Assembly (NCBI RefSeq): GCF_000709345.1
Contig: NZ_KL448323.1
Location: 1,016,242-1,080,241 of the forward strand
From: Polaromonas glacialis
Lineage (GTDB): Bacteria > Pseudomonadota > Gammaproteobacteria > Burkholderiales > Burkholderiaceae_C
Length of the DNA stretch: 64,000 nucleotides
Direction of reading: 5' to 3'
Below the pieces are notes generated by a model. The model saw only the letters and a list, made by a program, of their open reading frames with translations, did not search any database and was not told where the DNA came from. The first letter of the stretch is position 1, and every line of letters starts with the position of its first letter. Below are positions 49,321 through 64,000 of the stretch, piece by piece. Both the position numbers and the translations under genes were made by a program.

Positions 49321-49395
49321 GGGCGGTTAGCTCAGGGGTAGAGCACTGCATTCACACTGCAGGGGTCGCAAGTTCGAAACTTGCACCGCCCACCA
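49321..49395 (+). tRNA. tRNA-Val (anticodon CAC)
   Basis: Full cloverleaf: acceptor GGGCGGT pairs with ACCGCCC, D-arm GCTC/GAGC, anticodon stem CTGCA/TGCAG with loop TTCACAC (anticodon CAC), T-arm GCAAG/CTTGC with TTCGAAA, then A and an encoded CCA. 75 nt. It is followed by a terminator and an integrase gene, so its 3' end may be the attachment site of an integrated element. Confidence 0.96.
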
Positions 49396-49403
49396 AAATT
49401 TGA

Positions 49404-49441
49404 AACCTCGTAAGTCCTTGATTTACGGGGTTTTTTCTTTT
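49404..49441 (+). terminator. Rho-independent terminator after tRNA-Val
   Basis: CCTCGTAA pairs with TTACGGGG (one G-T), followed by a T run. Just after the tRNA and before the integrase gene. Confidence 0.75.
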
Positions 49442-49565
49442 GCCCGGCCGTTCCCGCTTGCGCCTGTCCTTGGCCCGTCGGCACGGTGAAATTGCGACAC
49501 TGCGCCAATTTTGCGCCAATGAACACTCCAATCCCGCCGCAAGGCTTTCACACTGGAGTGTATTC

Positions 49566-50996
49566 ATGGCAAGTTACAGCAAGCGCATTTACAAGTCCTG
49601 GCGCGTGAGCGTCGCGCTTCAAGGCGATCTCGGCCAAGCGTTTGACGCGTTGGACCAGGCCCAGGCCTATGCGCAGCAACTCAACGCCGCGGGCCACCCA
49701 CTCGCGCAGATCAGGCCCTACCAGTCCACGGGCTGGCAAGCGCGAATCCGCAGCAAACTGGCCCCTCAGCTGACCCGGACCTTTCCCACAAAAGCGTTGG
49801 CCGAAGAATGGGCCAAGGCCCGTGAGGGCGAAATCGTCAAGAGGCAATTCATCGATTACCGTGAAGCCGATCGGTTCACCTTGGGCGATCTTTTGCGTCG
49901 TTATGACTCTGAGCGGCTCAGCCATCTGGACGTGCACGATCCCGACCGCGCCCGCATCGCCAAAATGGGCCGCCATCCGATCACGCTGATCCGGATGTCT
50001 GCGATCCAGGCCAGCGACTTTGCCCATTACCGCGACCAGCGCCTCAAAGGCGGATTCGTCGAGCCCAAGCAGGGCGGCAAAGACTCGAACATCTGGGCGC
50101 CCGTCAAGGGCACGAGTGTCAAGCGCGAGCTTGCAATCATGAGCAACGTGATTTCGATCGCGCGCAGGGAGTGGAACGTGCACATGGCCATCAACCCCGC
50201 CTCGGGCGTGCACACCGCGCGTCCGGCTGCCGAGCCCGGTGACGAACGGGATCGCCGGCTCGCCAACGACTTTCACGCGGGCGATGAACACAGGGTCCAG
50301 AGCCTGGGGGCAGCGCCCTCGCGCGACCGGCGCCAGTCGCCCGATGCGGCGTTCGAGCTCGATCCTGAAACCGCCGCGCTGTTGAGCATGCCACAGACCG
50401 AGCAGCAGGCGCTGCTGCGGGCATGCCGCTACCCCGAGTGGTTCCGGCCCCGAAAAAAGGACGTCACGCCCAGCACGCTGCTGGCGCGTGCCAAAAAGTC
50501 CGCCAGACCCGTTGTCAAAGCACGGCTGCGTCAGGGAGGAGGAATGTGGGCCCTCTTCAGTCTTGCCATCGAGACCGCCTTGCGCCGTGGCGAGATGGTC
50601 AAGCTGGAGTGGGCGCATCTTCACCTGAATCATGGCAACGGCTACCTGATGTTGCCAGGAAGCATCACCAAGAACAAAAAACCGCGCATGGTGCCGCTGA
50701 CGCTCCGGGCGCGGCGCATCATCATGAGCCGGCCGAAGGTTTCCTCCTTCATTTTTGCGACCAATGAAAACACCATCAAGATGGCATTTTCCCGGGCCAA
50801 AAAACGCGTTCATATCACCGACTTGCGGGTGCATGATTTGCGCCATGAAGGGACCAGCCGGCTCTTCGAGCAAACGACTCTGCGGGCCGAGGAGATTGGC
50901 AGCATCACGGGCCACACCGACCCGCGCATGCTGCGGCGTTACTACAACATGCGTCCTGAAGAGTTTGTTGATCGTTTTGCCAAGTCTCGTAAATAA
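49566..50996 (+). CDS. Tyrosine-type site-specific integrase
   Basis: 476 aa from ATG 49566 (MASYSKRIYKSWRV). Residues 1-130 look like an arm-binding domain. The catalytic set is complete: Arg340 (ETALRRGEMVKLEW), a Lys in TKNKKPRMVPL, His423 and Arg426 (HDLRHEGTSR), His450 (GHTDPRM) and the nucleophile Tyr459 (LRRYY). It lies 170 bp from tRNA-Val and points away from it, which is the arrangement of an integrase that inserted into that tRNA. A longer frame to 49440 exists without family sequence. Confidence 0.9.
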   Translation: MASYSKRIYKSWRVSVALQGDLGQAFDALDQAQAYAQQLNAAGHPLAQIRPYQSTGWQARIRSKLAPQLTRTFPTKALAEEWAKAREGEIVKRQFIDYREADRFTLGDLLRRYDSERLSHLDVHDPDRARIAKMGRHPITLIRMSAIQASDFAHYRDQRLKGGFVEPKQGGKDSNIWAPVKGTSVKRELAIMSNVISIARREWNVHMAINPASGVHTARPAAEPGDERDRRLANDFHAGDEHRVQSLGAAPSRDRRQSPDAAFELDPETAALLSMPQTEQQALLRACRYPEWFRPRKKDVTPSTLLARAKKSARPVVKARLRQGGGMWALFSLAIETALRRGEMVKLEWAHLHLNHGNGYLMLPGSITKNKKPRMVPLTLRARRIIMSRPKVSSFIFATNENTIKMAFSRAKKRVHITDLRVHDLRHEGTSRLFEQTTLRAEEIGSITGHTDPRMLRRYYNMRPEEFVDRFAKSRK

Positions 50997-51261
50997 TGAG
51001 CGGGGCAGGGGAGAACTGAAAGTTCTCCCTCGGCGTCTGGACGTTTCGCTGGCACCGCACAGTAACTGACACATGAAACCGTGTTTAAAAAATATAGATC
51101 AACTTTCAGTGCTTCTGTCAACAGATTGGCGATAAGAACGGTATTTGGAAAACGCCCCATTCCTGTTTGTGCAAACGTGTGGACTGGGCCCTCAAAGAAT
51201 CGATAAATTCCGAAAATTGGCGCCATGGATGTCCCATTGCTTGTCAAGCCGGAGTTTAGTC

Positions 51262-51612
51262 ATGTTTCAGCACGTCGTTTCGCAACTCATCACTGTAAAT
51301 GCAGCCACAGCCACAGGGATCACTGCCTTGCCAGCCCCTTTAGTGGGCCAGGCACTGTTTGACAGTATTTACAGTCGACTCGAAAGCGAATTACCGCAGG
51401 GCCCTTATTTGAGCGACAAGGCATTCGCCAAGATTCTGGGGGTGTCGAGCAAGACGCTTTGCAATTTGCGCTCGGTCAAGCCGTTGCGCTACCCACGGCC
51501 AATCAGGATCGGTGACTGCCGAGAGCGAAAGCACGTTCGTGCAGAAATTCTCAACTGGCTCGCCCACGAAGAGACTGAAGCACGGACACAGATCGTCCAT
51601 CGGTGTCGGTAA
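51262..51612 (+). CDS. Small helix-turn-helix protein, possible excisionase or regulator
   Basis: 116 aa from ATG 51262, with GGAG eight bases upstream. LSDKAFAKILGVSSKTLCNLRSVKPLRYPRPIRIGDCRERKHVRAEILNWLA looks like a short winged-helix/MerR-type DNA-binding fold, as in AlpA or excisionase-like proteins of islands. The N-terminal 45 residues are not recognised. It sits between two integrases, which supports a role in control of excision; not proven. Confidence 0.6.
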   Translation: MFQHVVSQLITVNAATATGITALPAPLVGQALFDSIYSRLESELPQGPYLSDKAFAKILGVSSKTLCNLRSVKPLRYPRPIRIGDCRERKHVRAEILNWLAHEETEARTQIVHRCR

Positions 51613-51682
51613 TGGCATGCGATGTCGACGTATTGCGTGAAGACAATGAGCAACACCGTTGTCCGCCTGCCCGACAAACGAA

Positions 51683-51727
51683 TTGAAAATCCTTGTGTCG
51701 GTGGTTCGATTCCGCCCCAGGCCACCA
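51683..51727 (+). repeat. 3' half of a tRNA-Phe(GAA) gene, attachment-site core
   Basis: Begins in the anticodon loop TTGAAAA, then TCCTTGTGTCGGTGG, the T-loop TTCGATT, CCGCC, the acceptor strand CCAGGCC, A and CCA. The 5' half is missing: no GGCCTGG or D-arm lies upstream, and the stem that should precede the loop does not pair. It is 216 bp before the P4-type integrase, so it is most simply the att core of that element. Confidence 0.85.
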
Positions 51728-51758
51728 TATAAAGTTTCGCGGAAGTCCGACGAAGTCC

Positions 51759-51792
51759 AAAAGCCCTTAGGTATCAACACCTTAGGGCTTTT
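51759..51792 (+). terminator. Rho-independent terminator after the tRNA-Phe fragment
   Basis: Perfect 14-bp arms AAAAGCCCTTAGGT (51759-51772) and ACCTTAGGGCTTTT (51779-51792), 6-nt loop, T run after it. This kind of hairpin is usually found just after a tRNA gene that serves as att site. Confidence 0.8.
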
Positions 51793-51943
51793 TTGTTGTC
51801 CGGGGACGTCCGAAAAATTCCGGCCCAATCCAGCCACTTTTGCAGTAACTCCTGCAGTAACTCGAAAGAATCGAGGTAGCTGCAGAAAAGTTACTGCATC
51901 ACTCATCAACGAGGGACGCGCTTACGCGAAAGGGGAGCGAAAT

Positions 51944-53287
51944 ATGGCTTTGGAAATGATCAAGAGCGACCGGACCATCAAGGCGCTGAAGTTTGGCGCC
52001 GGCAGGCTGAGTGATGGTGGTGGGTTGTATCTTTTGCCCTTCGTCAACGGCGGCTCGCATGGTTGGCGATTCGACTACACGTATCAGGGTAAGCGCAAGA
52101 CGTTGAGCCTTGGTGTCTACCCGCAGGTTGGGCTGGCGCAAGCCCGCCAGAAGGCTACTGTTGCACGGTCGATGCTGGCGGCAGGGCAGGATCCCAGCGA
52201 CGACCGACGGCAGCAGCGTGCGGTGATCGTCGAGCGACATGAAGCCGGGCGTCGTCAGGAAGCCGGAGAAGCCCCGCTGGGAAGCTTTGAAGAGGTCGCC
52301 CGGCGCTGGTTCCATGTGCGCCAGGACCAATGGATGCAGAGCTACAGCTCCAAGGTCATTGCCCGCCTCCAGAACGATGTATTTCCATTCATCGGCTCTC
52401 AGCTGCTGAGCGACATCACGCCAAAGATGCTGCTTGACATGCTCAGGCGCGTTGAGGCGCGCGGCGTTCGCGAAACCACCCACCGTGTGCTTGAAACGTG
52501 CTCCAACGTGTTTCGCTTTGCGATTGCAGAAGGTCACGATCTGACGGATCCGGGACGGGACCTCAAGGGTGCATTGAAAAAGCCCCAATGCAATCATTTT
52601 GCAGCCATCACCAAGCCTCAGGAGTTGGCCCGGCTCTTGGGCGCCATTGAGGCGTATCAAGGCACCTATGTCGTTCGTGCAGCCCTGAAGCTCTCTCCGA
52701 TGCTGCTGGTGCGCCCGGGAGAACTTCGCAAGGCGCAATGGTGCGAATTCGACCTGGACAACGGCTTGTGGTACGTCCCGTCTGCCCGGCTAAAGCGAAC
52801 GAAGCTCGAAAAAGAGGTGGGGGAGCCTCACTTCGTTCCACTTCCGAGGCAGGCGGTGCAGGTTTTGGAGGAATTGTTCCTGCTGACCGGCCACTTGGCG
52901 CTTGTGTTTCCGGGCGAGCGCCATCGCGACCGGCCGATGTCCGAAAACACCGTCAACGCGGCGCTGCGGGCAATGGGTTACGCCAAGGACGAGATGACTG
53001 CGCATGGATTCAGGGCAACCGCCCGCACCCTGATCGTCGAAGCCCTGGGTTTCGATGAGGCGGTGGCTGAAATGCAACTGGCGCACGCCGTCAAGGATGC
53101 CAACGGAACGGCTTATAACCGGGCCGAGTTCCTTGCAAAGCGCCAGGAGATGATGCAGGCCTGGTCTGATTATCTTGAAGACCTGCGCCTGGGCCGAAGC
53201 AAGATCAAACACTCAGTGCTGCCTGAATTCAAACCGGTGACCTTGCGCCTTAGAAACACTCATGCTGCCAGAGCGCTTCCGCTTTGA
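51944..53287 (+). CDS. P4-type tyrosine integrase
   Basis: 447 aa from ATG 51944 with AGGGGAG upstream. The N-terminal DUF4102 arm-binding domain (ALKFGAGRLSDGGGLYLLPFVNGGSHGWRFDYTYQGKRKTLSLGVYP) is characteristic. Catalytic residues: Arg257 (VRPGELRKAQW), His354 and Arg357 (HGFRATAR), a His in QLAHAVKDANGTAYNR ten residues before the Tyr nucleophile, the P4 spacing. It follows the tRNA-Phe fragment and points away from it. A frame through the tRNA fragment to 51659 is not a real start. Confidence 0.93.
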   Translation: MALEMIKSDRTIKALKFGAGRLSDGGGLYLLPFVNGGSHGWRFDYTYQGKRKTLSLGVYPQVGLAQARQKATVARSMLAAGQDPSDDRRQQRAVIVERHEAGRRQEAGEAPLGSFEEVARRWFHVRQDQWMQSYSSKVIARLQNDVFPFIGSQLLSDITPKMLLDMLRRVEARGVRETTHRVLETCSNVFRFAIAEGHDLTDPGRDLKGALKKPQCNHFAAITKPQELARLLGAIEAYQGTYVVRAALKLSPMLLVRPGELRKAQWCEFDLDNGLWYVPSARLKRTKLEKEVGEPHFVPLPRQAVQVLEELFLLTGHLALVFPGERHRDRPMSENTVNAALRAMGYAKDEMTAHGFRATARTLIVEALGFDEAVAEMQLAHAVKDANGTAYNRAEFLAKRQEMMQAWSDYLEDLRLGRSKIKHSVLPEFKPVTLRLRNTHAARALPL

Positions 53288-53508: not shown

Positions 53509-54918
53509 TCACGCAGCTATCCGTTGCCCTTCAGAGGGCGGGTCATGGCGGTGGTATTTGGCCATGATTTTCGTCAGGTCAGGAGCCAAAGCGGGAACCG
53601 CGATAAATACCGGGAGGGCAGATCGCAGCGCATTGGCGACAATCAGCTCGGAAGGCGGCAGGGCCGCATTCATGGTGCGCAGCCAGCTGCGAAAGCAGCG
53701 CCAGACCTCTGCGGTGTGATTGATGGCCAGGTGCTGTAACAGACCTTGCGCGATGCAGCCGAGTTGGACATGCACGTGGCAGGCACGCAGTTTTCGCCGC
53801 ACGCCGGCCCGGTACTCGTCTGAGGTTCGATGCAAATACTGATCGCCCGCGCCACGGCGCAGCGGCTTCATGCCCTGCATCCAGAAGTGATACGCATAAG
53901 TGCCAATCACATGGACGGCTTGGCGAAAGCCCAGCTCGATCTTGAAGCGGTAGCCGTAAAGCTGAAGAATCTCCAAGGGCGCCAGTGACGTATCGGTGGA
54001 CAACAGAAAGATCGTCCCGCGCAGCGGGTGGTGAACAATGCAAAAGCGCACCATGCGCCCGACCGGTTTCCACAGCAAATCCAACACACGAAAGCGGACC
54101 ACGACATCGCGCTCGCCATAGACCGGGCTGGGAGCGCTGGTAAACGCGCCATCGTCCTGGGCCATCTGCTTGAGGCGAACCTTCTGGCCGTAGATGCGAG
54201 GCCTGCCTTTGCCGGGGTGTTCTACCTTGGGCACGGGCAGGTATGCCACCGCATTGGTTTTGGCGCGCGTCACCAGATGGTGCCCGTTGTCCAAAAGCGG
54301 CTTGATGACCTTGCCGCTGGCGTAATAGGCATCGGCCACCAGCACCACGGACCTGTTCCAGATGCGCGTGATCGAAAACAGGAGCGCCACCAGCTTGTCG
54401 AGCAACGTTTTTGAATCCCGGTTGGAGAACACCAGACCTTCGTGAATGCGCGAAGTCAGAGGAATTGCGCCAGCTAGTCCCTCAGCAGAGTGAACCAGAA
54501 GCGAAATCGCCTGAAACGAGTGCCCCATGATGTACTCAGGCTTTGTGTTGCTGGCCGAGTGCTGGTGCAAAAGCTTGACACCGGGCATGCGCTTGCCCTC
54601 CTTGGGCGCCTTGATCCCGTCGGCCAGGCAGACCAGGCGCTGTCCGACCTCAAAGGGGCGAAACAGCACCAGGCACAGGCGCACCCAGCACGACGTCAGA
54701 ACATCGAGATCCAGCGCCTTGCTGTGAAAGAAATGCAGCAGTCGGTGGTAGGCCGCCCCGCGCAGGTTCAAGACCCGCACAAAGCTGGTGACGCCAGAGT
54801 TGTCAGCGCGACAGCACAGCCCCATCAAGACAAGAGTCATCCACACAAAGGTGAGTGAGCGCTGACAGGCCGGCCGCAGGGTGCGTACCGCCTGGAGCCA
54901 CTGGGTCCATAGCTTCAT
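53509..54918 (-). CDS. Transposase of the IS4-like element
   Basis: 469 aa with the DDE catalytic fold: Asp100 (RLVCLADGIKAP), Asp196 (VVLVADAYYAS) and Glu328 in YGYRFKIE, where Tyr321-x2-Arg324-x3-Glu328 is the Y-2-R-3-E signature of IS4-type transposases. The frame is intact from ATG to stop, so it may be active. It cuts and joins the ends of the element. The exact family name is not certain. Confidence 0.88.
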   Translation of the reverse strand: MKLWTQWLQAVRTLRPACQRSLTFVWMTLVLMGLCCRADNSGVTSFVRVLNLRGAAYHRLLHFFHSKALDLDVLTSCWVRLCLVLFRPFEVGQRLVCLADGIKAPKEGKRMPGVKLLHQHSASNTKPEYIMGHSFQAISLLVHSAEGLAGAIPLTSRIHEGLVFSNRDSKTLLDKLVALLFSITRIWNRSVVLVADAYYASGKVIKPLLDNGHHLVTRAKTNAVAYLPVPKVEHPGKGRPRIYGQKVRLKQMAQDDGAFTSAPSPVYGERDVVVRFRVLDLLWKPVGRMVRFCIVHHPLRGTIFLLSTDTSLAPLEILQLYGYRFKIELGFRQAVHVIGTYAYHFWMQGMKPLRRGAGDQYLHRTSDEYRAGVRRKLRACHVHVQLGCIAQGLLQHLAINHTAEVWRCFRSWLRTMNAALPPSELIVANALRSALPVFIAVPALAPDLTKIMAKYHRHDPPSEGQRIAA

Positions 54919-55068
54919 GAGGGCGTTTCCTGGAAATCGCTCGCATCGACCAGTGTGTAAGCAACTCAGGAACTACGAGTGCATAAAACTGTTGATGCAG
55001 AAATAAATCGACGTGATCATGGAATTGGCAATTCTGCAACTTGCCCAAAAACCGACTCAATGACAAGA

Positions 55069-55087
55069 AAAACTTATCACTGTCCAG
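55069..55087. repeat. Right terminal inverted repeat of the insertion sequence
   Basis: AAAACTTATCACTGTCCAG, the reverse complement of the left end except for two bases. Confidence 0.8.
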
Positions 55088-55149
55088 GAATTAAGAGTGA
55101 CCATTAATTGCCACGCTGGCCAGCAGACAGAGCGGCCCATCCATCACCA

Positions 55150-55169
55150 ATCTTTAGGCGCCTAAAGAT
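55150..55169. promoter_or_regulatory. Palindrome 1, candidate binding site
   Basis: ATCTTTAGGCGCCTAAAGAT, perfect 20-bp palindrome. Confidence 0.7.
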
Positions 55170-55191
55170 ACGCTGTACCTGAGGCTCATAA

Positions 55192-55205
55192 TTTAGGCGC
55201 CTAAA
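55192..55205. promoter_or_regulatory. Palindrome 2, candidate binding site
   Basis: TTTAGGCGCCTAAA, perfect 14-bp palindrome with the same core as palindrome 1, centres 39 bp apart. Confidence 0.65.
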
Positions 55206-55259
55206 CTTCAGTGCGCTAGCGCTGGCTGGCCAAGCAGCCAAGGCGGCCCGTCCGTCACG

Positions 55260-55281
55260 AATCTTTAGCCGGCTAAAGATT
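55260..55281. promoter_or_regulatory. Palindrome 3, candidate binding site
   Basis: Perfect 22-bp palindrome with the core TTTAGCCGGCTAAA, centre 72 bp from palindrome 2. TTTAGC...GCTAAA resembles the KorB operator of IncP plasmids (TTTAGCSGCTAAA), with one base more in the centre. Confidence 0.7.
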
Positions 55282-55808
55282 TGCTATTTCCTCAAGGCCA
55301 AGCATGTTTCGGGTGGATCTGCAACGGCGGGGTCAGCCCGTGTAAAGCCTCGCTGTTGCATCGATGCCGGCCGCTCGTGGCTTGGCCGCTCTGCATTGAA
55401 TGCAGGTCGATCTAGCGCACACCGGCGCCTTGCGCGTAACGTTTGACAGCACTGGGCCAGCCTCAGCCAGTCGGCGCCGCCTGCAGTGTGCTGCCAGTGG
55501 ATGAGTCTCAAGTCTTGCCTCAAGCCAATGTCGCTTTACCGCTTTGCTCGCCTGAATGCGGTGTTTGCCTGTGTCTGACCCGCTGAAGGGGCAAATCTAC
55601 CGGCCTTAACCGGGCTGCCCAGTCCCTGCGTGCCCGTTAATTTGCTAAATTGATTTCAAGCACTGCGCAACAAAAAGCTTCTGCCTTCGGGCGGCGTGAA
55701 TCAGGATCGCGACCCTGACGGTCAATCAGTGCAACTACGGCAACGGCCACCGTAACCTCAAGCCCGCATCTTCGGAAGCGGGGAACTGTTCGCTTCAAAA
55801 AGACCGAC
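55282..55808. other. Gene-free stretch before the ParB-like gene
   Basis: 527 bp between palindrome 3 and the ParB-like start. No open frame with family sequence. The promoter of the ParB-like gene must be here or within the palindrome region. Confidence 0.55.
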
Positions 55809-56870
55809 ATGAAAACATCCGCTGACACCCACTCGCTAGTTTCACCACAGGACGACACCCTCGGCAACAGCCTACCCAGCCCGACCCTGCCGCCTGCCTC
55901 GACTTCCCTCGGCGAACTGCGCCGAATCGATCCTCACCGCATCCGCGCAATTCAGATGCCCAATCGCGACCCCGCATCATTTGAAAGTGACGAGTTTGAG
56001 AGCCTGCATCAAAGCATCGTGGCGGCGGGTGGAAACTCGGTGCCGATCTCCGTCGTGCAGTTGGACGGCCCGACAGCCGCGCATGACTACGAACTGATCA
56101 CCGGCGAGCGTCGCCTACGCGCTTGCATCCAGGCCAGGCTGCCCGTGCTCGCGATTGTTAAGCAAGCCCAGCAGGTGCCTGAGCAGCAACGCTTGCTCGA
56201 AACGCTGCAGGAAAATATCGCACGACAAGACCTTTCGCCTTTCGAGTTCGGCCGGCAACTAAAGCATGCGATCGATACGGGCCTGTCGTCCAGCGCCCGG
56301 GCGCTGGCCCGCCACATCGGCCGGCATCACAGCGATGTCAGCGCGGCGATCAAATTGGCCAGCCTGCCCGATGAGGTCATTGAAGCATTCACATCAACTG
56401 CGGACCTGCAATACCGGTTCGAAAATCTGCTCAGCCAAGCGCTCACCAAAAACAAGTCAGCAGTGCTCAGCGCAGCACGAGCCATCAAAGCACTACCGGA
56501 TCGGCCTGCCGCCAAAGAGGTGGTCACGCTGCTCGTCGCGGCCGCAGCAGCGCCTGCTGTAGGAGTGCAAAAAGGGGGTGTCGGACGGTCCGACACCCCC
56601 TTCAATGGCGCACTTTCTTGTGCCGGCCAAGAGGTCGGCAGCGTGCAGATCGACAAGCGCGGGCACGCAAAAATTACGCTTGGCATTGCGCTCACCGACA
56701 AGCAGCAGGCAGCGCTGCACAAGCACATCGATGCGTTCCTGCAGCGTCACATCGCCGGCACAAACGCGAGCCCGAACGCGTACGGCATCGACAGCGAAAC
56801 GGCATCGAAGGCGAGGAAAACAGACGCTTCAAGCGGATCTGACAGCACGCCAGCGGTGGCTGCGCGATGA
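55809..56870 (+). CDS. ParB/KorB-like DNA-binding protein
   Basis: 353 aa. The N-terminal ParB domain (about 37-117) has ITGERRLRACIQARLPVLAIV, in which GERR at 99-102 is the CTP-binding motif; LQENIARQDLSPFEFG at 133-148 is ParB box II; LSSSARALARHIGRHHSDVSAAIKLASLPDEV at 159-190 is the helix-turn-helix. After residue 240 it is low-complexity and includes a stretch (255-265) encoded by a 31-bp palindrome. No parA lies next to it. The ATG at 55809 is set by ParB length; no strong ribosome site is seen. It overlaps the next gene by four bases. Confidence 0.85.
   Translation: MKTSADTHSLVSPQDDTLGNSLPSPTLPPASTSLGELRRIDPHRIRAIQMPNRDPASFESDEFESLHQSIVAAGGNSVPISVVQLDGPTAAHDYELITGERRLRACIQARLPVLAIVKQAQQVPEQQRLLETLQENIARQDLSPFEFGRQLKHAIDTGLSSSARALARHIGRHHSDVSAAIKLASLPDEVIEAFTSTADLQYRFENLLSQALTKNKSAVLSAARAIKALPDRPAAKEVVTLLVAAAAAPAVGVQKGGVGRSDTPFNGALSCAGQEVGSVQIDKRGHAKITLGIALTDKQQAALHKHIDAFLQRHIAGTNASPNAYGIDSETASKARKTDASSGSDSTPAVAAR
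56572..56602. repeat. 31-bp palindrome inside the ParB-like gene
   Basis: Arms AAGGGGGTGTCGGAC (56572-56586) and GTCCGACACCCCCTT (56588-56602) with one G between, perfect. It encodes QKGGVGRSDTPF-like residues in frame, in a region of low complexity. It could be a mobile palindromic element that inserted in frame, a hairpin in the message, or a binding site. Confidence 0.7.
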
Positions 56871-58435
56871 GCCATTCGGCTGCGAGCAGCAGCGCAAACG
56901 TCACTGCAACGGTCACGATAAATGGATACGCAAACGAAGGAAAAATCACATTGCCGCAACCTCACAGTAACACCCCACCAGGGGTGGCACGGGAGGGTTC
57001 GGTAATGTGGGCCGTACCTGATCCGCGAGGAGAAGGTTTGCGTAGCAAAGGCGGGGCATACGGACCGGTGGAGGCAGGGGGTGTGACAAGCAACAAGGCA
57101 GCTTTGCTGGCGCCGTTGGTTGGCGCAGCGCTTGCAGCCACCGGACACCCGATGCAGGCCGAGCCTGCATCGGAACGAGCATCGAAAACGCAGGACAACG
57201 CGGTCGAAAAAGCGATCGTGACCGAAGCCTCAACGCCAGCGAACATGAGGGTCGAGCCCGAAAGTACGCCGCCGAAAAGTGCAGACGCTGGGCCGGGCGG
57301 GCAAGGCTTGTCCAAACTCCCCCAACTGCTGGGCCGCGACGAAGCGTTCGCCATCGTCAAAAAAGCCAGGCTGCTCATCTCCAGCGAAAAGGAAGCGAGA
57401 AAGGCCAGAAAGGACACGAAGGCCTCGGACTCAACGCTCGAAGATTACGCTAAAAAGTGTGCCCGGTTAGACGCCGAAATGGCTCTTCTGCAGTACCCGT
57501 GGGGCCATCCGATCGAGGTCGTCATGAGCCGGCACGCGCCCAAAAAGCAGACGTTCTCCGCGATGCGCAGTGCACTTAAACGCCGGGTGCTTGCTCAAAT
57601 TGCGCAGGCCCTCAAGGCACAGGATGAACTGCAGCGCAACGGAAATCTGTCGCAACCGTGGCAGCAAATGGTGCGCGAGTTGCAGCATTGTCTGCACGAC
57701 GCAGCAGTCATCGATGGCCTGGACCGGATCCAGTTGCTTGAGATGACCGGGAAGCAGGCCGTCCGCTCAGTGTCGAAACGCCAGCAACTGCGCGGCCTGC
57801 GCGACGGGTGGCAGGATGAGTTTCTGGCGCTCAACGAGCGTTCCCTGACTTATCGGGCAGCCGGCGTGCTGCTGCGCCATTGCGGATTGCGACCGGCCGA
57901 GCTTGAAAAGGGGGTGGCCGTCACGGCCGACGCCGGCGTGGTCAATGTGCGCATCCTGGGTGCGAAAGTTCGAGACGGCGTGGCCGGCCAGCTTTGGCGG
58001 CAGTTTGCTCTGGCCAGGGAAAGCCTGCCGGCGTGGTTTGTCCAGACACTTGATGCGGGAGGGCCGATGTCCGTCGTCGCCGAGGCCGACGGACTGCGCG
58101 CGCACCTGGCCAGGCTCTCTGTCAAATTGTTTCCGCGCAAAGGCACTGGCAAAAAAGATGTCATCCTGTCGGCCTATTTATTCCGTCATGCTCTGGTCAC
58201 GGAGATGCGCGAAGAGGGCTGGGACACGTCCGACATCGCAGGCGTGATCGGCGAGTCGACAGCCGATACGGTGGCTTGGTATGGGATGCGCAGGCGCAGC
58301 GGCGGCTCCGTCAAGCCCAAAAAAGTGGTGATCGTGCTGGGCAGCATCCAGACCGCAGTTCCGGTCAGGCCGCTGGACCTGTCCAGCTTGGCGCAACAGA
58401 TCCGCGCAAGCCGCAGCAAAGGGGCACGAAAGTAG
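56867..58435 (+). CDS. Tyrosine-recombinase-like protein, divergent
   Basis: 522 aa. Residues 1 to about 160 are low-complexity. The C-terminal part has a recombinase catalytic core: Arg342 in CGLRPAELEKG (motif I), Arg440 in YLFRHALVTEM (HxxR motif, with Tyr437 in place of His), Glu463 in GESTADT where His or Trp is usual, and Tyr472 nine residues later in AWYGMRR, the usual nucleophile spacing. Two of the usual residues are changed, so activity is doubtful or altered. The ATG overlaps the ParB-like stop (ATGA), so they are made together. Confidence 0.8.
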   Translation: MSHSAASSSANVTATVTINGYANEGKITLPQPHSNTPPGVAREGSVMWAVPDPRGEGLRSKGGAYGPVEAGGVTSNKAALLAPLVGAALAATGHPMQAEPASERASKTQDNAVEKAIVTEASTPANMRVEPESTPPKSADAGPGGQGLSKLPQLLGRDEAFAIVKKARLLISSEKEARKARKDTKASDSTLEDYAKKCARLDAEMALLQYPWGHPIEVVMSRHAPKKQTFSAMRSALKRRVLAQIAQALKAQDELQRNGNLSQPWQQMVRELQHCLHDAAVIDGLDRIQLLEMTGKQAVRSVSKRQQLRGLRDGWQDEFLALNERSLTYRAAGVLLRHCGLRPAELEKGVAVTADAGVVNVRILGAKVRDGVAGQLWRQFALARESLPAWFVQTLDAGGPMSVVAEADGLRAHLARLSVKLFPRKGTGKKDVILSAYLFRHALVTEMREEGWDTSDIAGVIGESTADTVAWYGMRRRSGGSVKPKKVVIVLGSIQTAVPVRPLDLSSLAQQIRASRSKGARK

Positions 58436-59450: not shown

Positions 59451-60113
59451 ATGATCGTTTTCCTGGATTTCGACGGCGTGCTGCACTCGGAGCCCTGCGC
59501 ACGAGACGAGTTGTTTTGCCACCTGCCTCTGTTTGAAGAAGTGCTCAGGGAGTATCCGGCGGTGCAGGTGGTCATCTCGTCGGCCTGGCGACTTGCCTAC
59601 CGGCACCGCCCGATTTCGCGGTTGCGCGAGCATTTTTCGCCCGATATTTCCGGGCGAATCATCGGCGTGACCCCGGACTATCGCCGAGCCAATGAGACCA
59701 TGGCGCCCAACGGGCTGGGCTTGTTTACCAGGCACTGGGAGTGCGTCGACTGGCTCCGAGCCCACCGGTCGGATGGCGCGCCCTGGCTGGCGATCGATGA
59801 CCGGGAATATCTGTTTGCGCCCTGCTGTGGCAACCTCATCCTGTGCGATTCAGCAGTTGGTTTTACCGCAGCGCATGCATGCGAATTGCGGGCGCGACTT
59901 GGCCAGGCGAGCTTGCTCGATCAGGTCCGCCAAATGGTCCAGGAGTCCGGCTGCCCAGCCGGTTTTGACGCGGATGCCTGGCTCAAAAGCTGGCTGGCGG
60001 AGCCATTGCCTGCGCTGGATGGCACCCTGCCGGGCGCGTGGCTGGAACAACCAGAGGGTCAGGCGATGGTGTTCAGCATCCTGAGGCGCATGCAAAGCGG
60101 CGCCTACTCTTAA
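59451..60113 (+). CDS. HAD-superfamily phosphatase-like protein
   Basis: 220 aa. IVFLDFDGVLHSEP (Asp6 and Asp8, the nucleophile and acid-base pair), VVISSAWRLAY (motif II Ser/Thr) and WLAIDDREYLF (motif IV DD) define a HAD fold; the DGVLH form is common in the HAD domain of Swiss-Army-Knife RNA repair proteins. Its substrate is unknown. It ends 17 bp before a metallophosphoesterase gene, and the two are probably one transcript. Confidence 0.8.
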   Translation: MIVFLDFDGVLHSEPCARDELFCHLPLFEEVLREYPAVQVVISSAWRLAYRHRPISRLREHFSPDISGRIIGVTPDYRRANETMAPNGLGLFTRHWECVDWLRAHRSDGAPWLAIDDREYLFAPCCGNLILCDSAVGFTAAHACELRARLGQASLLDQVRQMVQESGCPAGFDADAWLKSWLAEPLPALDGTLPGAWLEQPEGQAMVFSILRRMQSGAYS

Positions 60114-62249: not shown

Positions 62250-62310
62250 TGGATTGTAGCTGTGTATTCCGCAAGACTTCCCGGTTGGCCAATACGGCCG
62301 TGGATGTTTG

Positions 62311-62565
62311 ATGAATCGTATCGCTGCATTTGGCCAAGCCGTTCGAAACTGTAGGAAGGCGCAAGGACTGTCCCAGGAAGCGCTGGCTGAAAAAGCGGAC
62401 CTGCATACCAACTATGTATCTCTGGTCGAGCGGGGACTGAGCGCGCCGGCGCTGGACACGATCTGTGCATTGGCGGATGCCCTGGGCCTGAGCGTCTCGG
62501 ACCTGGCCCTGCAGATGGAAGCCCATGCAAAGCGCAGCCCGGACCTCGGCTATGACCAGGCGTGA
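62311..62565 (+). CDS. XRE-family helix-turn-helix regulator
   Basis: 84 aa from ATG 62311, after a TTG also in frame. FGQAVRNCRKAQGLSQEALAEKADLHTNYVSLVERGLSAPALDTICALADALGLSVSDL is one HTH_3 domain over most of the protein, like small phage and island repressors. It likely binds the palindrome at 62236. Confidence 0.85.
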   Translation: MNRIAAFGQAVRNCRKAQGLSQEALAEKADLHTNYVSLVERGLSAPALDTICALADALGLSVSDLALQMEAHAKRSPDLGYDQA

Positions 62566-62654: not shown

Positions 62655-63080
62655 TCAATCGCCTGGCGTCATTCGCTGCCAATTGTTTTCATACCCGAGC
62701 GTGCGCCCACCTACTGTGATTTTTCGGCTGATGCGCCGCTCGCCGGTGTTGACGACAAACGCGCCAGGCAACTGGTGCGTATCGCCTGCGTTGTAGGCAG
62801 CAGCAGCGCGGCCCAAGTTGAATGGCACCCCCATTTTTTTGAGGGTCTCGGTCGCCAGCGTTTCCAAGCTGCCGGCCGGAACAGTGGCTCCGGTGACTGA
62901 GCTCTTGCGCGTCCTGGCGTAGATGCCGAGGCTGATCCGCACAATGACTCCCTTATCGATCAGGGTAGTCAATGCGGCGGTGATCTGCGCAGGGCTGCCC
63001 AGTCCGGCGATTTCGGCCCGGAAGATCACATTGCCTGGCTGGCGTTCGATCAGACGCAAAAGACGATCGGACAGCTTCAT
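62655..63080 (-). CDS. DUF6088-like protein
   Basis: 141 aa. MKLSDRLLRLIERQPGNVIFRAEIAGLGSPAQITAALTTLIDKGVIVRISLGIYARTRKS looks like a winged-helix start of the DUF6088 or AbiEi-antitoxin type. The family is recalled from memory. A TTG at 63119 in the same frame would overlap the stop of the KfrA-like gene (TTGA) and add 13 residues; which start is used is not clear. It may be co-transcribed with the KfrA-like gene. Confidence 0.6.
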   Translation of the reverse strand: MKLSDRLLRLIERQPGNVIFRAEIAGLGSPAQITAALTTLIDKGVIVRISLGIYARTRKSSVTGATVPAGSLETLATETLKKMGVPFNLGRAAAAYNAGDTHQLPGAFVVNTGERRISRKITVGGRTLGYENNWQRMTPGD

Positions 63081-63115
63081 GGCGTCGCGACCCAAATGAG
63101 AAACTCCAACGGCTG

Positions 63116-63799
63116 TCAAATTTGAAAAGCCGCTGTCAGTGGTCCGCTGTTGAGGGCGGTCAGGCTCGACACCGCCTGGATATCGACCTTCGTCTTTACG
63201 CGCCGAGGCTTTCGCGGCGGAGAAATCAACGCCAGCAGGTGCTGCATCTGGATGTCGACGGCTTGCCTTGCGCCCTCGAGTTTGGCGATCTGCTCTCGGA
63301 GTTGCTGGTTGTCTGCAAGCCGTTCGTCAGCGAGGCACTGAACTTTTTGTAACTCGTCAAGATGCGGTCGAGTCTGTTGGATTTGCAACTGCAGCAAGGC
63401 GATCTGGGCGTTTTTTGCGTCGATCTTGCCTGTCAACTCGTCATTCTGGGCTTGCAGGGTCTCGTTGCTCGCGATCGATGAGGCCAGAGCGATGCTGGTG
63501 TGCTCCAACTCGCCAGCGGCTCGCTCCTGCGCAGCGGCGAGCTGCAGCTGCAGCTCGCGCATGGACTCGGCCCACACCGCGTTGCCCAAGGCGTTGCAGA
63601 GTCGCTCGATCGACGCGGGCGCCGGGTGGGTGGGATGCACTTTTTGGGTCGCGAACCAGGCGTTGAGATGAGGCCCGACTGTCGAGTGACTGCCGCCTGT
63701 TTGGGCCGTGACTTTCTCGACCGTCACTTCAAGTCCTTGGGCCTGCAGTGCGTCGGCTGCGGCGAAAACGGCTTCTTTTGTAGCAAGTTTGCGTGTCAT
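63116..63799 (-). CDS. KfrA-like DNA-binding coiled-coil protein
   Basis: 227 aa. The N-terminal domain (MTRKLATKEAVFAAADALQAQGLEVTVEKVTAQTGGSHSTVGPHLNAWFA) is the KfrA_N helix-turn-helix. Residues about 78-195 form a long coiled coil (LQLQLAAAQERAAGELEHTS through QIALLQLQIQQTRPHLDELQKVQ). KfrA proteins bind their own operator and help plasmid partition. The region upstream of its ATG holds the palindrome and repeats at 63819-63889, which fits self-control. Confidence 0.88.
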   Translation of the reverse strand: MTRKLATKEAVFAAADALQAQGLEVTVEKVTAQTGGSHSTVGPHLNAWFATQKVHPTHPAPASIERLCNALGNAVWAESMRELQLQLAAAQERAAGELEHTSIALASSIASNETLQAQNDELTGKIDAKNAQIALLQLQIQQTRPHLDELQKVQCLADERLADNQQLREQIAKLEGARQAVDIQMQHLLALISPPRKPRRVKTKVDIQAVSSLTALNSGPLTAAFQI

Positions 63800-63818
63800 G
63801 CGATGTTCTCCTGGGGGT

Positions 63819-63860
63819 TAATCACCGTAATTACTGTAATTACAGTGATTACGGTGATTA
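63819..63860. promoter_or_regulatory. 42-bp palindrome upstream of the KfrA-like gene
   Basis: TAATCACCGTAATTACTGTA at 63819-63838 matches the reverse complement of 63841-63860, with one mismatch in 21 pairs. It begins 20 bp before the KfrA-like ATG and is probably its operator. Confidence 0.8.
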
Positions 63861-63889
63861 CGGTGATTACGGTGATTACGGTGATTGCG
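63845..63889. repeat. Five tandem 9-bp repeats
   Basis: GTGATTACG occurs four times in a row, then GTGATTGCG: 63845-63889. The array grows out of the right arm of the palindrome and looks like iterons or extended operator sites for KfrA. Confidence 0.8.
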
Positions 63890-64000
63890 GTTGCTGGGAC
63901 CTCCTGGCTTATGGTCAAGAGAGATTTCTAGATTGTTTCAAGTTATGGTTTGGTCAGGGGGCCGCGGCGCGGCGTAAGCAGTTCTTATTTCACTCCTATA

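Follow-up and report, generated by a model that had tools for sequence, protein, structure and literature searches.

A tandem 9-bp array beside a KfrA-type gene of Polaromonas glacialis as the probable operator of that gene

What is the function of the repetitive DNA that ends 18 nt from the ATG start codon of a KfrA-type gene in Polaromonas glacialis? The original prediction, made on the 64,000-nt stretch analysed here (the window), described a 42-bp palindrome merging into five 9-bp repeats and proposed cooperative binding by KfrA at its own operator, with an origin-like iteron or a partition site as further options. From the sequence evidence, we put at roughly 85% the probability that the array is an autoregulatory operator of the adjoining kfrA gene, extended in tandem and cooperatively bound. 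The elements concerned are these:

62655-63098, minus strand: DUF6088/AbiEi-antitoxin-like gene, 147 aa (PF19570, E 9.7e-8)
63116-63799, minus strand: KfrA-type gene, 227 aa (KfrA_N, Pfam PF11740, E 7.6e-15)
63808-63812, minus strand: Shine-Dalgarno-like AGGAG, 8 nt before the kfrA start codon, read from the sequence
63818-63888, minus strand: array of eight 9-bp units, GTRATYAC plus one base, defined by the register and mismatches of each unit, a repeat search and shuffles
63819-63860: near-perfect dyad, 42 bp long with 20 of 21 pairs matched; its centre is the self-complementary unit 63836-63843
63845-63880: four letter-identical copies of GTGATTACG, on the gene-upstream side of the array

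Both the repeats and the palindrome of the original prediction are present. The four GTGATTACG copies are followed directly by GTGATTGCG at 63881-63889, and the inverted-repeat arms (63819-63839 and 63840-63860, 21 nt each, 95% complementary, with no spacer) bear out the palindrome and its merging into the repeats. All five of the units originally counted are there, but the left arm of the palindrome shares their 9-bp register, so the array has eight. Read on the plus strand, the units start at 63818 (TTAATCAC, one mismatch to GTRATYAC), 63827 and 63836 (both GTAATTAC), 63845, 63854, 63863 and 63872 (all GTGATTAC) and 63881 (GTGATTGC, again one mismatch); six of the eight are exact, and the flanking register positions, 63809 and 63890, do not match. 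An RA3-type operator is expected to have at least four contiguous 9-bp units, and eight lie in register here. Because GTRATYAC, as a degenerate word, is its own reverse complement, the palindrome and the tandem repeats are the same array under two names. The dyad, made up of the five gene-proximal units, exceeds the near-palindromy of the unit itself, since the two spacer bases on either side of its centre are complementary too.

The identity of the four GTGATTACG copies makes a recent tandem duplication likely, and these upstream copies may be a later extension of the gene-proximal five-unit dyad. Duplication could also be the whole explanation, the array being a neutral product without function, and letter-identical copies are what slippage would be expected to leave. 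The dyad, the position next to the start codon and the recurrence before other KfrA genes described below would all be unexpected on that account, which we regard as very unlikely.

Pattern searches found no second copy of the array in the window or in the genome. A two-unit, 18-bp probe with up to three mismatches matched the 64-kb window seven times, always inside the array, and had zero matches in 100 dinucleotide shuffles. At zero mismatches the two- and three-unit patterns are confined to a single locus of the source genome, as expected of an RA3-type operator; the exact three-unit pattern GTNATTACN is found there in one place, the array, and of 87 genus genomes only the source genome itself has it, the remaining 86 giving no match. 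Mechanical plus-strand ORFs at 63500-63931 and from 63793 onward cross the array, and nothing points to their being genes.

The protein encoded beside the array matches KfrA_N with 56 bits against a cut-off of 26.1. Its single-sequence AlphaFold model (mean pLDDT 72.9, pTM 0.33) has a helix at residues 60-192 with ten-residue mean pLDDT values of 70-98 and a poorly resolved, low-confidence DNA-binding (helix-turn-helix) head; behind the KfrA_N domain a long alpha-helical tail is predicted, as in KfrA proteins. The end of the recognition helix carries a tryptophan (GGSHSTVGPHLNAW), as it does in many, not all, of 110 KfrA representatives, and PMC7783346 calls the tryptophan at this place totally conserved within its own KfrA set. 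The short gap and common strand suggest that the DUF6088 gene is probably the second gene of a kfrA operon; the AbiEi_4 match of its product falls below the cut-off. A genome-contig search for close relatives returned no related loci, and tblastn with the window KfrA found nothing in plasmids at 1e-5 or in phages at 0.1. At E 1, plasmid tblastn matched 48 records; in the 40 that were listed, coverage of the protein is 25-47%. A search of solved structures gave a single match, at E 0.37, which was not useful.

No sigma-70-like promoter reached the threshold around the window array, the best candidates scoring 8-8.5 out of 12 with a half-point TG bonus included. At two of the other loci discussed below, L201 and L016, there is a promoter-like match of the form TTGACA-17/18-NATAAT, with its second hexamer within the array. 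About 141 bp beyond the window array, on its upstream side, lies an insertion sequence with a DDE_Tnp_1_3 transposase and perfect 19-bp terminal inverted repeats:

L005, 1272-1290 and 2269-2287 (about window position 64030 onward): terminal repeats of the insertion sequence

At a guess, it may have altered the promoter region.

We surveyed the DNA upstream of other KfrA genes. KfrA_N genes were found in 36 of 299 phylum, 47 of 369 class and 24 of 87 genus genomes, and a protein search of the family sample matched 16 of 299 genomes, with 38% identity for the best match besides the protein itself; all of these counts include the source genome, and the samples overlap. With a local profile, a KfrA_N ORF was found in 150 loci, duplicates included, which clustering at 70% identity and a 120-bp upstream minimum reduced to 110 representatives; of the places listed for the phylum, class and genus samples, all but the fragments G779:C222 and G965:C133 were included. 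Twelve plasmid regions, found by similarity to KfrA queries, were picked in addition, 10 from the 60 listed of 77 matched and 2 from the 40 listed of 48 matched. The control segments (1104) come from the same loci as the KfrA genes, intergenic and other DNA alike.

A pair of TRATYA cores exactly 9 bp apart occurs in 8 of the 122 KfrA upstream regions and in none of the 1104 control segments, nor in any of the 369 control segments with a GC content of 50% or less. Among core spacings from 7 to 22, the commonest are 9 and its double, 18 (6/122), followed by 8 (3/122; control 2/1104) and then 17 (2/122). The pair is present in five of the 110 representatives, namely the window (L007), L041, which came from the pattern search, L016, which came from the protein search of the family sample by similarity to the window KfrA, and L066 and L112, which came from family searches. 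It is also present in 3 of the 12 plasmid regions (L192, L193 and L201), a set enriched in relatives because it was hand-picked from similarity matches; L016 and the plasmid set, both found by KfrA similarity, are not random draws. When the window and L041, found by pattern, are set aside, 6 of 120 KfrA upstream regions have the pair (p 8e-7), and when the plasmid set is set aside as well, 3 of 108 have it (p 7e-4). Similar runs thus precede some related KfrA genes, which makes the array most likely KfrA's own switch, and the original proposal of cooperative binding by KfrA draws support from this recurrence of core and spacing together with the RA3 precedent discussed at the end.

The recurrence also bears on the suggestion that the units are iterons of an origin, to which a replication initiator would bind. 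Short tandem repeats with a constant period are in keeping with iterons. Against this, similar arrays recur upstream of other KfrA genes and the window array abuts the kfrA ribosome-binding site. Moreover, a Pfam scan of 17 distinct ORFs brought up no initiator family, so this part of the original prediction is unsupported, and we judge an iteron origin to be exceedingly improbable.

Other arrays, TGTAGTATGTAG-like or TGTATTGTA-like among them, lie upstream of several KfrA genes whose recognition helices differ. In the source genome, the KfrA gene on contig 7 (L089) is preceded, at a distance of 17 bp from its start, by a palindrome of the GTAATA type. Palindromes of 32-44 bp, A+T-rich, lie upstream of the KfrA genes of L156, L109, L178, L154, L157 and L089; several of them are built of short direct units, and their letters differ from those of the window array. 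Palindromes with a score of at least 10 occur in 22 of 110 KfrA upstream regions versus 17 of the 1104 segments; versus the upstream regions of other ORFs (4 of 44, a comparison that covered palindromes and lag scores) the difference is not significant (p 0.15).

Of the eight KfrA genes that have the 9-bp core pair, seven (all but L112) encode a recognition helix of the form GS-x-S/T-T-I/V-x-x-H/Y-L, and such a helix is found with no core pair at L115, L174, L197, L198 and in the HRYL group. A helix class defined by eye as a regular expression, which was to predict the unit, was dropped, as the HRYL helices and L115 break it. Tentatively, and with the odds somewhat against it, one might picture a beta-/gammaproteobacterial KfrA subclass with this helix that follows a single code, one TRATYA per 9 bp, while array length evolves; the eight units of the window would then be slippage-expanded and would nucleate a longer filament on the integrated island.

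The unit is also found away from KfrA genes. The three-unit pattern occurs in the collections in 19 stretches of genomes and 4 of viral contigs, and a KfrA_N ORF is present in only one of these 23 (L041), the other 22 being without it. The original prediction had held that it would be refuted if such repeats also preceded unrelated genes, and in part that is what these stretches provide. Ten of the 23 are a GTGATCAC variant, and 13, L041 included, overlap a mechanical ORF. The viral contigs L045 (9403 onward) and L046 (10271 and before) carry long GTAATTACA- or GTAATCACT-like 9-bp runs, which overlap mechanical ORFs that would encode simple repetitive peptides. In Marinobacter vinifirmus FB1, arrays of the GTAATTAC or GTGATTAC type, two or three units long, occur in three places:

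L034, 1410-1435: Marinobacter vinifirmus array
L043, 3479-3504: Marinobacter vinifirmus array
L189: Marinobacter vinifirmus array

The L034 array comes after a Mutator-family transposase gene and the L043 array after a TrwC relaxase gene; none of the three is beside the one KfrA gene of this genome, which has a TGTATGTA palindrome upstream. Since the three-unit stretches and the Marinobacter arrays are mostly without KfrA, the unit alone is no proof of a KfrA site. The Marinobacter GTAATTAC arrays would also suit a different reading, in which the window array is the operator of another regulator encoded nearby, for instance ParB or the XRE protein of 62308-62565, both of them DNA-binding proteins. 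The recurrence of core and spacing among KfrA genes, which are what the survey covered, argues against such a regulator, and we consider one improbable.

The ParB gene (55809-56870) raises the question of whether the array serves plasmid-like maintenance. KfrA is found on many plasmids, and its specific role is called enigmatic in PMC7783346. According to that paper, the KfrA of RA3 interacts with KorB and, weakly, with IncC, and a kfrA mutant defective in DNA binding loses a test plasmid as readily as a deletion does; PMC7821693 describes polymerisation of R751 and RA3 KfrA when operator DNA is present. The window array could likewise be chiefly a maintenance or partition site, at which KfrA filaments join a ParB complex and autoregulation is secondary. 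The element lies, however, within a 4.1-Mb contig, ParB is encoded ~6 kb from the array, and neither a ParA nor an initiator family appears among the 17 Pfam-scanned ORFs, nor was either seen by eye among the ORFs of 54850-55850. We find it doubtful that maintenance is the chief role. An accessory role in partition, the remaining option of the original prediction, is possible only by analogy with RA3, given the ParB gene ~6 kb away.

The surrounding DNA has several features of its own. A tRNA-Val gene and then two tyrosine recombinase genes (49440-50996 and 51659-53287) occupy 49321-53287, the likely entry of the island; no copy of the tRNA-Val region of at least 14 bp was found in the window or in the 18.8 kb to its right. 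The ParB gene overlaps a 522-aa ORF by 4 bp (55809-58435 for the two), and this ORF has only a weak, Xer/phage-integrase-like C-terminal match. The gene at 59451-60113 encodes a protein with a HAD_SAK_2 domain; this protein also matches the C-terminal domain of the Xre_MbcA_ParS antitoxin, but below threshold.

As an operator of kfrA, the array would most likely work as follows. Because GTRATYAC is a near-palindrome, it offers a two-fold-symmetric site at each 9-bp step in either reading, and KfrA dimers would bind through their N-terminal helix-turn-helix with a site every 9 bp. The helical tails would let neighbouring dimers associate, and occupancy is proposed to be cooperative for this reason. 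The resulting complex would cover the DNA as far as the ribosome-binding site, thereby blocking transcription of kfrA, and the DUF6088 gene behind it would probably be shut off together with kfrA. Natural operators that share one core and one spacing and range from about two to eight units would form a dose series in which unit number can be related to cooperativity, repression and filaments, and the same set would make it possible to probe how the sequence of the unit goes with the recognition helix.

Some of the closest comparisons are among the surveyed loci themselves. In Acidovorax carolinensis pACP4.2 (L201), as in the window, TRATYA cores recur every 9 bp and a dyad stands directly before kfrA; its KfrA is short (209 aa) and parB lies behind kfrA, the window likewise having a parB neighbour. 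Unlike the window, L201 has only about three units, and a strong promoter-like match runs through its array. The Photobacterium loci L041 and L192 and the Methylobacter locus L193 share with the window GTAATTAC/TAATTA cores, 9-bp pairs and palindromic arrays, but their arrays have fewer units and lie ~37-75 nt upstream of the start codon. R751 (IncP-1beta) also has a repeat upstream of kfrA, and its KfrA binds the operator DNA with which it polymerises; its operator, set beside the window array by description, is an extended inverted repeat spanning the -10 region (PMC7821693).

The direct precedent for the reading as a KfrA operator is RA3 (IncU), whose KfrA, as described in PMC7783346, binds five 9-nt repeats of TGTATTGTA at its own promoter, three in one orientation and two in the other, the third and the fourth flanking the -10 box. 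In vitro, five and four repeats were bound about equally, three at least 3-fold more weakly than the wild type, and two were not bound under the conditions used. In vivo, some three- and four-repeat variants were wild-type-like, and the Discussion of that paper states that four are needed for full repression; in the model put forward by its authors, dimers occupy a single major groove at the junctions of repeats. The window differs in its near-palindromic GTRATYAC unit, its eight contiguous units and its lack of a clear promoter match. It agrees with RA3 in having 9-nt units before kfrA, in both orientations, and a KfrA_N protein with a predicted helical tail. As an operator, the window array belongs to this published kind; it is longer and very regular, and its unit is different.
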